A DNA stretch of 33,507 nucleotides. It comes from Candidatus Margulisbacteria bacterium GWF2_35_9 (GTDB lineage Bacteria > Margulisbacteria > Riflemargulisbacteria > GWF2-35-9). Numbering within the stretch: the stretch's first letter is position 1; every line of letters starts with the position of its first letter. The stretch covers positions 1 to 33,507 of the forward strand of contig MFRH01000099.1 of the NCBI GenBank assembly GCA_001783275.1, written 5' to 3'. Shown piece by piece: positions 25,109 to 28,198 of this stretch. A program made the translations under genes and the position numbers. The notes below the pieces were generated by a model. It was not told the origin of the DNA. It did not search any database and worked only from the letters and a program-made list of their open reading frames with translations.

Positions 25109-25813
25109 CTATAAGCTAATTTGAACCGGAACATTAACGTTTATCTGCTCCGGAAAAATATCAGTGCCATACGCTAAAATCTCGACGCCTTGGTTTCTAG
25201 CAAGGTTTAATAATCTCGCATACTCAGGGTCAATATGTTCTGCTGGTTTAAAGAGATTTCCGTCACTTCTTAAAACAAGAAAAAAATTGATCGCTCGATG
25301 GCCGTCTTTGACCATATTCACAAGTTCTTTTAAATGTTTATGTCCTCGTGTCGTCACCGCATCTGGGAACATATAGGTATTATCTTCCAATAGTGTTACA
25401 GTTTTAATTTCAATATAGGTTTTCTGTTTTGGATCGTCTATTAGTATATCAATTCGGCTATTCTGACCATATTTAACTTCAGTTCTCAGGTATTGTGATG
25501 GCGAAATTTCTGCTATTTTACCCTCCTGAATAGCTTCAACTACAATTTGGTTGGCTAGCTGGGTATTGAGTCCAATCCAGCAAACTTGATTGTGAACCAT
25601 TTCTAAGGTGTATTTTGTTTTTCGATCTGGATTCTTCGCAATAGAAATCATTGCGGGCCAACCCTCTCCCAAACAGGTTTTCATACTGCCGGTATTGGGA
25701 CAAAGTATTGTTACTTCCTCTCCGTTCTGGAGCACAACATCAGCTAAAAATCGTTTATAGCGTCTAAGAAATATAGCAGCAATTAATGGCGGTTGAAATA
25801 TCACAGAGAGCAT
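25109..25813 (-). CDS. sfsA: Sugar fermentation stimulation protein homologue SfsA
   Basis: Predicted DNA-binding or nuclease-fold protein; E. coli SfsA affects maltose genes and its biochemical role is unsettled. 234 aa from ATG 25813 or 231 aa from GTG 25804; with the GTG the start MIFQPPL lines up exactly with E. coli MEFSPPL. Family motifs: RRYKRFLADV, CPNTGSMKTC, EVKYGQNSRIDIL, YIEIKTVTL (nuclease-like E-x-K), FPDAVTTRGHKHLKEL, and GVEILAY. Both starts lie inside a perfect palindrome whose minus-strand TATAAT would start transcription near the GTG, giving a leaderless message. No SD is seen. Confidence 0.94.
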   Translation of the reverse strand: MLSVIFQPPLIAAIFLRRYKRFLADVVLQNGEEVTILCPNTGSMKTCLGEGWPAMISIAKNPDRKTKYTLEMVHNQVCWIGLNTQLANQIVVEAIQEGKIAEISPSQYLRTEVKYGQNSRIDILIDDPKQKTYIEIKTVTLLEDNTYMFPDAVTTRGHKHLKELVNMVKDGHRAINFFLVLRSDGNLFKPAEHIDPEYARLLNLARNQGVEILAYGTDIFPEQINVNVPVQISL

Positions 25814-25845
25814 TATAACAGGATATAATGCTCTCTGTGATATTT
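25796..25845. promoter_or_regulatory. Perfect 22-bp-arm palindrome over the sfsA start, between divergent genes
   Basis: Arms AAATA+TCACAGAGAGCATTATA and its exact complement flank the 6-nt loop ACAGGA. Each strand carries TATAAT (25824-25829 on +, 25817-25812 on -), so it may be a symmetrical divergent promoter/operator for sfsA and the LuxR-type gene. It cannot serve as a terminator for either, because it lies at both 5' ends. Confidence 0.6.
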
Positions 25846-25862: not shown

Positions 25863-26760
25863 GTGAACCATATTGTATTGCTTATACATGGAATATCCTT
25901 TTCTGTTGGACTTGCAGCGGTAACTCTAGCCTCTAGCCTTTACCCTTTACAATCAATACAGAAAAGTTGTTATTAAATACTACTCTGTATTTCTATTATC
26001 AATCTTACTTATGCTCACTCAGCTTGTGTTATTAGCATACGGACATGTAGCAATCAATTTTACATACTTTCAAGTCTTTGATCTGTTACCATTTACAGGG
26101 GTTGTTCTGCATGTTTTCAGTGCGCCCTATTTCTTTATTTATTTAATGGGTGAAGTTCCAGACAAACAAAACAAGATAATTATCTGGATAGCAACTCTCC
26201 TAATGCTTTGCTTATCCTTTTTTTATTTCTTTAGTCATAATCTACAAATTGCTCGATGGTTATTGCAACCACTATTATTCTCTGTGGATATCTGGAGTAT
26301 TATTTATATTTTCACTAAAATCAAACTTCTCCAAAACCGCCTACTTCGCAAATATCTTCGAATTTTGATTATCTTCGTTGTCACCACATTTCCCTTTGTT
26401 GTTTTGGATGCACTTCTGGGAACATTACCTTTTGCTCCGTTTGATCTTGCATTACCCCTATTTTTTTTAGTCTTAAACTGGATGAGTTTATTTTTTCTTT
26501 TGCGATATTTTAATGAACCCGCTTATTTGCAAAATAACACCCCCACCGATTATTTCTGTAAACAATATGATATTACAAAACGTGAAGCTGAGATTATTTC
26601 ATTTATTTTGAAAGGCCACAGCAATAAACAAGTAGCCGAAGAACTCTTTATATCCCCGAAAACGGTTGAAAACCACTTAGGAAATATTTACCTAAAAATG
26701 GATGTTAAAAACCGCATTCAACTCTCTAGGATTCTCCAGTCAAGTTATCAGAAATGCTAA
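25863..26760 (+). CDS. Membrane-anchored LuxR-type regulator, frameshifted near its 5' end
   Basis: Bases 26011-26760 encode 249 aa with about six hydrophobic segments and a C-terminal LuxR/GerE helix-turn-helix (YDITKREAEIISFILKG, ISPKTVENHLGNIYLKMDV). A further segment is encoded upstream in another frame, from about GTG 25863: HIVLLIHGISFSVGLAAVTLA, a likely first membrane helix, reaching a TAA at 25974. Between the frames lie two adjacent 7-bp tandem duplications (CTCTAGC twice, CTTTACC/CTTTAC). Removing one 7-bp unit joins the frames as LAFTLYNQYRKVV or LASSLYNQYRKVV. The gene is thus broken or phase-switched. The 3' end overlaps the opposite gene by 35 bp. Internal start at ATG 26011 could still give a shortened protein. 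Confidence 0.8.
25924..25950 (+). repeat. Two adjacent 7-bp tandem duplications causing a frameshift
   Basis: CTCTAGC occurs twice at 25924-25937 and CTTTAC(C) twice at 25938-25950. Loss of either unit would restore one continuous reading frame for the LuxR-type gene. Seven is not a multiple of three, so slippage here switches the frame. Confidence 0.8.
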
Positions 26761-28198
26761 ATTTGTGTTGATTAATAAAAAACTCACCATGACTTCGATG
26801 ATTTGAGATTCCGAACTCAATATCTGGCCAAAACCACATTCCATCAGTAATTTCTTCTCCTAAAGGGAGTTTCTTTATCCAATCATTTTTAAAATTTTCT
26901 ACACCAAGAAAAAAAACGTCTTCACGACGACATAGCTGGTCAAAATGCTTGCTTCCTCGAAATGCTCTATGGTCAACTGGTTCAGAATCCAGCATCATAA
27001 ATTGCTGTAATTCTATTAATGCCACAGCATTGCAATAATGTTCATACCCTATTGAAGGAAACCCAAGCGCCCGAGTTAGGGAATCTGGCTTAACAATTAA
27101 GGAATAATTATGATATAAAGAATTAATTCGTTGTTGAGCTAATGTCACATTTGGAGATGCTTTGTCTATATACACTATTCCTTTTCCAAACTTCTGTCCA
27201 TAATTGACGATATCACGTCCTTTTAACACGAGTTTATACCCTTCTGGTAATGGATTAATACTTGCTCGACTTATATTATCAATAAACGGATTAACCTGTA
27301 TCAATACTGGATTGGATTCGTCATCCTGTATTGCAAATTCGAAATAAAGAGACGCTTTAATATCTTTAATCTTATGAAGAAGTGCTGTTCCTTTTTTTAT
27401 TATTTGCTGTGTTATTTCTTCCGATTTATCTGCACCAGGAGTAATTTGGTTAAAAATTGGAAATGGGCGACTAATATAGTTCGGATTATTAAGAAAACTA
27501 TAACCTATCACCCACTTGCTAGAAGCCTTCTCTTTATGAGAAACCTTCACTTTACCATCGATTAATTCCAAACACATTATTTCTGCCTCTGTTCGTATCC
27601 CTCTTGTAATACGTATTTTTGGATGCCCATCGAAACTAATATAACCCTCACCAGCATAAGCTGGACTAAAATCACTATTCTCTAGCTTACCCACAACCGG
27701 AGTTATGAGTAATGGCATACCAAACTTTGCATTATGCTTTTCTCTATAAGCTTTCGCTTTATCACTAAACTCACTTGCATAAACTCGTTTCTGTACTTTC
27801 CAAAGTATATTCAAATCATGACGCCGATCTCCAGTTGGAAGATAAATCATTGAGTCATAAATACCAGATCCGCCTCGTTCTCCAAGAGATGAGGATCTAA
27901 TATAATATGGTTGGCCAGGAATCATTTTTTCATAAATCTCCTCATTTAATTGGCGTATTGATATTGGTCTTTTTAATCTTTCAACAGCCTTAACGGTACT
28001 ATCCTTTGTTAGATGATTAATCATCATTAAACGAAAAAAGTGGGATACATCTATACATTGAGTTACCTCAAGTATTTCAAAACCCGCTTGATAAAAAGGT
28101 TCTCCATATTTTGCCAAGTCTGAGATTTTACCACCAAAGTGACTAGAGTCTGTCGCGATAATTTTTGTATGTAAAATATGTAATGTACGATTAGCCAT
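26726..28198 (-). CDS. PEP-synthase/PpdK N-terminal-like ATP-binding protein
   Basis: 490 aa. Similar in pattern to the ATP-grasp nucleotide-binding domain of pyruvate phosphate dikinase and PEP synthase: YYIRSSSLGERGGSGIYDS (residues 98-116, equivalent to 'RSSAxxEDxxxxSFAGQ') and FEFAIQDDESNPVLIQVNP (equivalent to 'IEWAxxxGxLxxLQxRP'). The phosphohistidine and PEP-binding domains of the full enzymes are missing, so it cannot be PpdK itself. It might be a stand-alone dikinase-like ATP-grasp phosphotransferase. An N-terminal section of about 90 residues (starting MANRTLHILHTK and containing GGKISDLAKYG) resembles the 'GGKxxxLxxL' opening of the family. It is transcribed alone; its 3' end overlaps the LuxR-type gene by 35 bp. 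Substrate unknown. Confidence 0.6.
   Translation of the reverse strand: MANRTLHILHTKIIATDSSHFGGKISDLAKYGEPFYQAGFEILEVTQCIDVSHFFRLMMINHLTKDSTVKAVERLKRPISIRQLNEEIYEKMIPGQPYYIRSSSLGERGGSGIYDSMIYLPTGDRRHDLNILWKVQKRVYASEFSDKAKAYREKHNAKFGMPLLITPVVGKLENSDFSPAYAGEGYISFDGHPKIRITRGIRTEAEIMCLELIDGKVKVSHKEKASSKWVIGYSFLNNPNYISRPFPIFNQITPGADKSEEITQQIIKKGTALLHKIKDIKASLYFEFAIQDDESNPVLIQVNPFIDNISRASINPLPEGYKLVLKGRDIVNYGQKFGKGIVYIDKASPNVTLAQQRINSLYHNYSLIVKPDSLTRALGFPSIGYEHYCNAVALIELQQFMMLDSEPVDHRAFRGSKHFDQLCRREDVFFLGVENFKNDWIKKLPLGEEITDGMWFWPDIEFGISNHRSHGEFFINQHKFSISDNLTGES

Follow-up and report, generated by a model that had tools for sequence, protein, structure and literature searches.

In the pneumococcal capsule genes cap3A, cap8E and tts, spontaneous short sequence duplications have been reported together with phase variation (Waite 2001, 2003, cited in PMC4022640). 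These genes resemble the locus treated here in that an inactivating tandem duplication arises inside an open reading frame, with no long repeat tract beforehand, and can be lost again; they differ in that the target here is a regulator, the repeat unit is among the short ones that revert slowly, and reversion would be possible only in principle. The locus is also like the reversible Agr variants of Staphylococcus aureus, in which a regulatory system is turned OFF by a duplication or a change in tract length and the change is undone in a minority of mutants; there, however, revertants were isolated and sequenced, and instead of heptads the variants involved a duplication with inversion and a poly(A) tract (PMC6686034). 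In the secondary forms of Xenorhabdus, a regulator (lrp) is likewise lost by varied mutations that include tandem duplications, and the loss was once taken for phase variation, but the duplications are 26-116 bp long and no genetic reversion was seen (PMC6786866). The 7C tract of siaD in Neisseria meningitidis is comparable in being short and mutation-prone, in occurring at chance density and in now and then turning its gene off accidentally, although it is a mononucleotide tract and lies in a capsule gene (PMC11868660). Criteria for phase variation include reversible switching in both directions through a genetic change at one locus, a rate of about 1e-5 or more that can be detected without selection, and a repeat tract exceeding what chance provides in the genome; the review that discusses them warns against calling chance short tracts phase-variable (PMC11868660).

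The locus described here is a LuxR-type membrane regulator gene whose reading frame changes at two abutting 7-bp tandem pairs. It lies in a window of 33,507 nucleotides (the whole stretch of DNA that was analysed), which is part of contig C99 in a 2.35-Mb draft genome of 100 contigs, 87% complete and 4.8% contaminated. The genus of the source bacterium is represented by this one genome.

The split regulator gene and its neighbourhood

The regulator is a single plus-strand gene between two minus-strand genes, sfsA and a 490-aa gene. The divergent neighbour sfsA (25109-25813) matches PF03749 with an E value of 6.9e-48, and also PF17746. The convergent neighbour (26726-28198), an open reading frame that overlaps the 3' end of the regulator, had no match in the Pfam and NCBIfam search. 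Translation divides the regulator between two frames of the plus strand. Frame A (25863-25976), the original 5' part of the gene by translation and homology, encodes the first membrane helix; it starts at GTG 25863, is translated as VNHIVLLIHGISFSVGLAAVTLASSLYPLQSIQKSCY and ends at TAA 25974-25976 after 37 codons. Frame B (25930-26760) begins with PLAFTLYNQYRKVVIK, stays open for 276 codons (25930-26757) from the end of TM1 and its loop through TM7 and the LuxR HTH, and stops at 26758-26760. It has no internal stop, and its HTH is intact: the GerE domain (PF00196) is found at 26575-26730 with an E value of 4.3e-19, corresponding to residues 189-240 of the 249-aa ORF (26011-26760, plus strand) that a mechanical caller begins at ATG 26011.

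At the frame junction lie two perfect tandem pairs. CTCTAGC is repeated at 25924-25937, with the period-7 match extending to 25939, and CCTTTAC is repeated at 25937-25950, abutting the first pair with one shared base; together the pairs form a degenerate four-unit heptad array with 18 of 21 period-7 matches. Seven is +1 modulo 3, the right shift to separate frames A and B. When either heptad is discounted, one 296-aa frame without a stop results, and the loss of whichever unit leaves one perfect 7-bp pair. The initial annotation had placed the N-terminal helix in one frame and the rest in another, joined without a stop by deletion of either unit, and both statements agree with the translations. 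The two tandem pairs that it described are also present, with the correction that the second spans 14 bp (25937-25950) and not 13 bp.

The two frames overlap over 44 bp (25930-25973), and a +1 shift within this zone would join them with the addition of two residues. Programmed +1 ribosomal frameshifting there would let the assembled sequence yield full-length protein. This account is very improbable in our view: the shift point has no stop codon, the homologues are encoded in a single frame, and the tandem pair offers a simpler explanation of the shift. We also know of no slippery site at the junction.

In its read-through form the regulator has about seven hydrophobic stretches, as does its orthologue in the nearest relative compared. 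The C-terminal GerE HTH and the N-terminal domain of about seven helices are the two features of the membrane-sensor form of LuxR/GerE-type regulators. Known membrane-anchored members of this group likewise carry a C-terminal PF00196 HTH behind several membrane helices, but the sensor part here matches no Pfam or NCBIfam family. A single-sequence structure prediction returned helices compatible with a membrane domain at low confidence (pLDDT 53), and this AlphaFold model, made without an alignment, was too poor for a structure search. Given the roughly seven predicted membrane helices and the LuxR HTH, and judging from what is known of the family, the protein would be a one-component membrane sensor with predicted DNA binding.

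Upstream of the gene, a perfect inverted repeat with 22-nt arms and a 6-nt loop (25796-25845) ends 17 bp before GTG 25863 and overlaps the start of sfsA. It occurs in a single copy, carries TATAAT on each strand and, among 47 perfect hairpins in 2.26 Mb (arms of at least 15, loop of at most 10), ranks third in length. The G+C-rich stem plus T-run typical of most other hairpins is missing from it; a terminator scan nonetheless lists it. We speculate that it might act as a shared divergent promoter/operator for sfsA and the regulator. The Rfam matches at this repeat were set aside as sub-threshold microRNA models that fit a perfect hairpin. The longest perfect hairpin of the assembly (32-nt arms, 7-nt loop) is at C5:4607-4677. 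A perfect loopless palindrome with 23-nt arms around TGTTTCACGTGAAACA is found at C58:18009-18054; we take it to resemble a parS site.

Homologues and the original start

The nearest relative compared, G001, belongs to the same family and another genus. Its orthologue is split between the ends of contigs C115 and C106, whose terminal sequences seem to overlap by 8 nt (TATTAATC), and the two parts would join into one gene. The start codon of this orthologue coincides in position with GTG 25863, and frame A shares 43% identity with its residues 1-23 (E 5e-5). Across the junction the orthologue aligns gaplessly only with one heptad discounted ('KYKKNVIK/QYRKVVIK'). A profile built without the studied stretch gave a concordant picture, frame A matching positions 2-23 and frame B positions 25-307, with the frame change within the tandem pairs; the profile comprised four sequences, three of them usable homologues, as the row from G020 was a mis-extracted 28-aa segment. 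More distant homologues also begin where frame A begins, and the homologues are encoded in one frame. Because the profile matches either side of the junction and the G001 alignment is gapless once a heptad is subtracted, the original start is placed at 25863 and the break is a net +7 bp; the frames, the tandem pairs, the homology on either side and the gapless spacing minus one unit all bear this out.

When the genome contigs were scanned, the matches besides G001 came mainly from relatives that match the C-terminal (HTH) part only. At the junction position, heptads are absent in G001 and G028, both of which are distant relatives. Elsewhere, at codons 3-8, the homologues in G034 and G020 contain perfect 7-bp T-rich tandem pairs (ATTTTTT and TTTTTAC) that are probably a matter of composition.

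The mechanically called ORF suggests another reading, in which ATG 26011 is the true start of a 249-aa gene and the open frame upstream is a coincidence. Few genes in the window carry a Shine-Dalgarno motif, so that start sites here are not checkable by such motifs; GTG 25863 also lacks one, and the test is uninformative for it because most genes here lack a Shine-Dalgarno. What speaks against the downstream start is homology: the N-terminus of the relatives has its counterpart in frame A, and frame B homology extends over 60 bp beyond ATG 26011 on the 5' side. The 249-aa form would moreover be without TM1 and most of TM2. The initial annotation had allowed for relatives with a different N-terminus and a real start at ATG 26011; the orthologue and the distant homologues begin instead with frame A. 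The comparison of the locus in related genomes, which it had proposed as a check, supports in G001 one ancestral frame from 25863. A true start at ATG 26011 is thus extremely improbable, and we judge that this codon is not the ancestral start. By sequence comparison, frames A and B are one gene, which a mechanical start at ATG 26011 would misannotate.

Heptads in the assembly and the cause of the frame change

The frequency of heptad repeats was determined over 2.26 Mb of the assembly. Perfect two-copy 7-bp tandems occur at chance density (213 observed vs 217.5 expected), and the heptad tract itself is no evidence for an evolved contingency locus. The coincidence of the junction with a heptad pair and the correct shift, on the other hand, exceeds chance, since 0.41% of 44-bp tiles contain a 7-bp pair and one tile in 51,246 contains two. 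A tandem duplication very probably caused the frame change. Degenerate four-unit heptad arrays number four in 2.26 Mb, one of them AT-rich, vs none in three Markov-1 simulations. Another such array (CTATTCACCATTCACCATTAACTATTAA) lies at C26:1293-1320 within an intact 1594-codon frame whose product resembles a polyketide synthase, and an intergenic one (TGTCACTTGTTACCTGTTACTTGTTACT) at C75:13582-13609.

We consider it probable that a +7 frameshift knocked the gene out recently, in a form that is prone to slippage and could in principle revert, and that this is not an evolved phase-variable locus. During replication a strand would have slipped within the short run of heptad near-repeats and so added one unit. 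The additional 7 bp would shift the frame by one base, translation from GTG 25863 would end after 37 codons, and the assembled genotype, presumably OFF, would make no full-length protein. Unit loss could restore the frame, probably as rarely as is to be expected for short two-copy duplications in general. Because a perfect 7-bp pair remains after the loss of either unit, the in-frame form would also be prone to slippage. The gene shows no further decay; with neutral substitution at 1%, the frame would stay free of stops with a probability of 0.64, and at 5% with one of 0.11. The intact remainder of the gene only bounds the age of the event, which may well be recent, and fits a maintained gene as well.

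The extra unit might also be an artefact of assembly or strain mixture, in a population that is in-frame, with the additional copy supplied by misassembly or by a minority strain. The fragmentation, incompleteness and contamination of the draft favour this possibility. Reads and k-mers, however, are much longer than the repeat, assemblers normally do not expand such repeats, and a second copy of the locus was not found in the assembly. A clean 7-bp duplication is also unusual as a short-read error. We regard an artefact as unlikely.

Knock-out or reversible switch

The initial annotation had left the choice between a knock-out and a reversible switch. The disruption of the frame of a membrane LuxR-type regulator by a 7-bp duplication is upheld by homology; the reversible switch finds no support in the data. 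An evolved, or at least functional, phase switch would toggle the regulator in some cells by fast gain and loss of a unit in both directions. Several features accord with it: the unit length is not a multiple of three and both parts of the ORF are otherwise intact, a tandem pair persists in the in-frame form, and the degenerate four-unit array is above simple (Markov-1) expectation. Against it, each unit has only two perfect copies, in pairs no denser than chance, and the junction position holds no heptads in G001 or G028, though these are distant and the tract could have evolved recently within the genus. For insertions of up to 9 bp, reversion is expected at about 1e-5 or below (PMC4022640), roughly the limit set for phase variation (PMC11868660). 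Phase variants can also be imitated by ordinary, varied loss-of-function mutations of a regulator, lrp of Xenorhabdus being an example (PMC6786866). An undecayed gene fits both a recent break and maintenance; altogether we hold the switch to be unlikely.

Also against the switch, the 2.26 Mb were searched for further genes broken at tandem repeats, and there was none among the candidates examined. Individual examination covered the two longest candidates apart from this locus and four others, and the remaining ones are short. The two longest (C61:77891 and C90:29608) proved to be ordinary adjacent genes, and the other four showed either a real gene accompanied by a minor frame or nothing but short ORFs.

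A mutator background was considered as well. The domain search of the assembly found no MutS; MutL is present, and mutS occurs in all four of the family relatives. In the relatives mutS adjoins pheS-pheT (identified by eye from translations), and pheS-pheT also went unmatched in the examined 96% of the assembly. Since these neighbours are missing too, the mutS locus probably lies in an assembly gap, and the mutator idea was set aside.

The recent knock-out therefore remains the reading that we prefer, and the locus serves mostly as a warning: where the frame changes exactly at a clean tandem duplication, the arrangement resembles a switch, yet counts over the genome find two-copy tracts of this kind everywhere by chance. 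To our knowledge, no regulator-level phase switch is known in a Margulisbacteria-related lineage. That this uncultivated lineage should possess a low-copy heptad contingency locus, which would switch a one-component membrane regulator and its regulon by gain and loss of a 7-bp unit, is quite improbable on the present evidence. If copy-number variants occurred in the reads, the locus would represent a regulator-level phase switch in this lineage.
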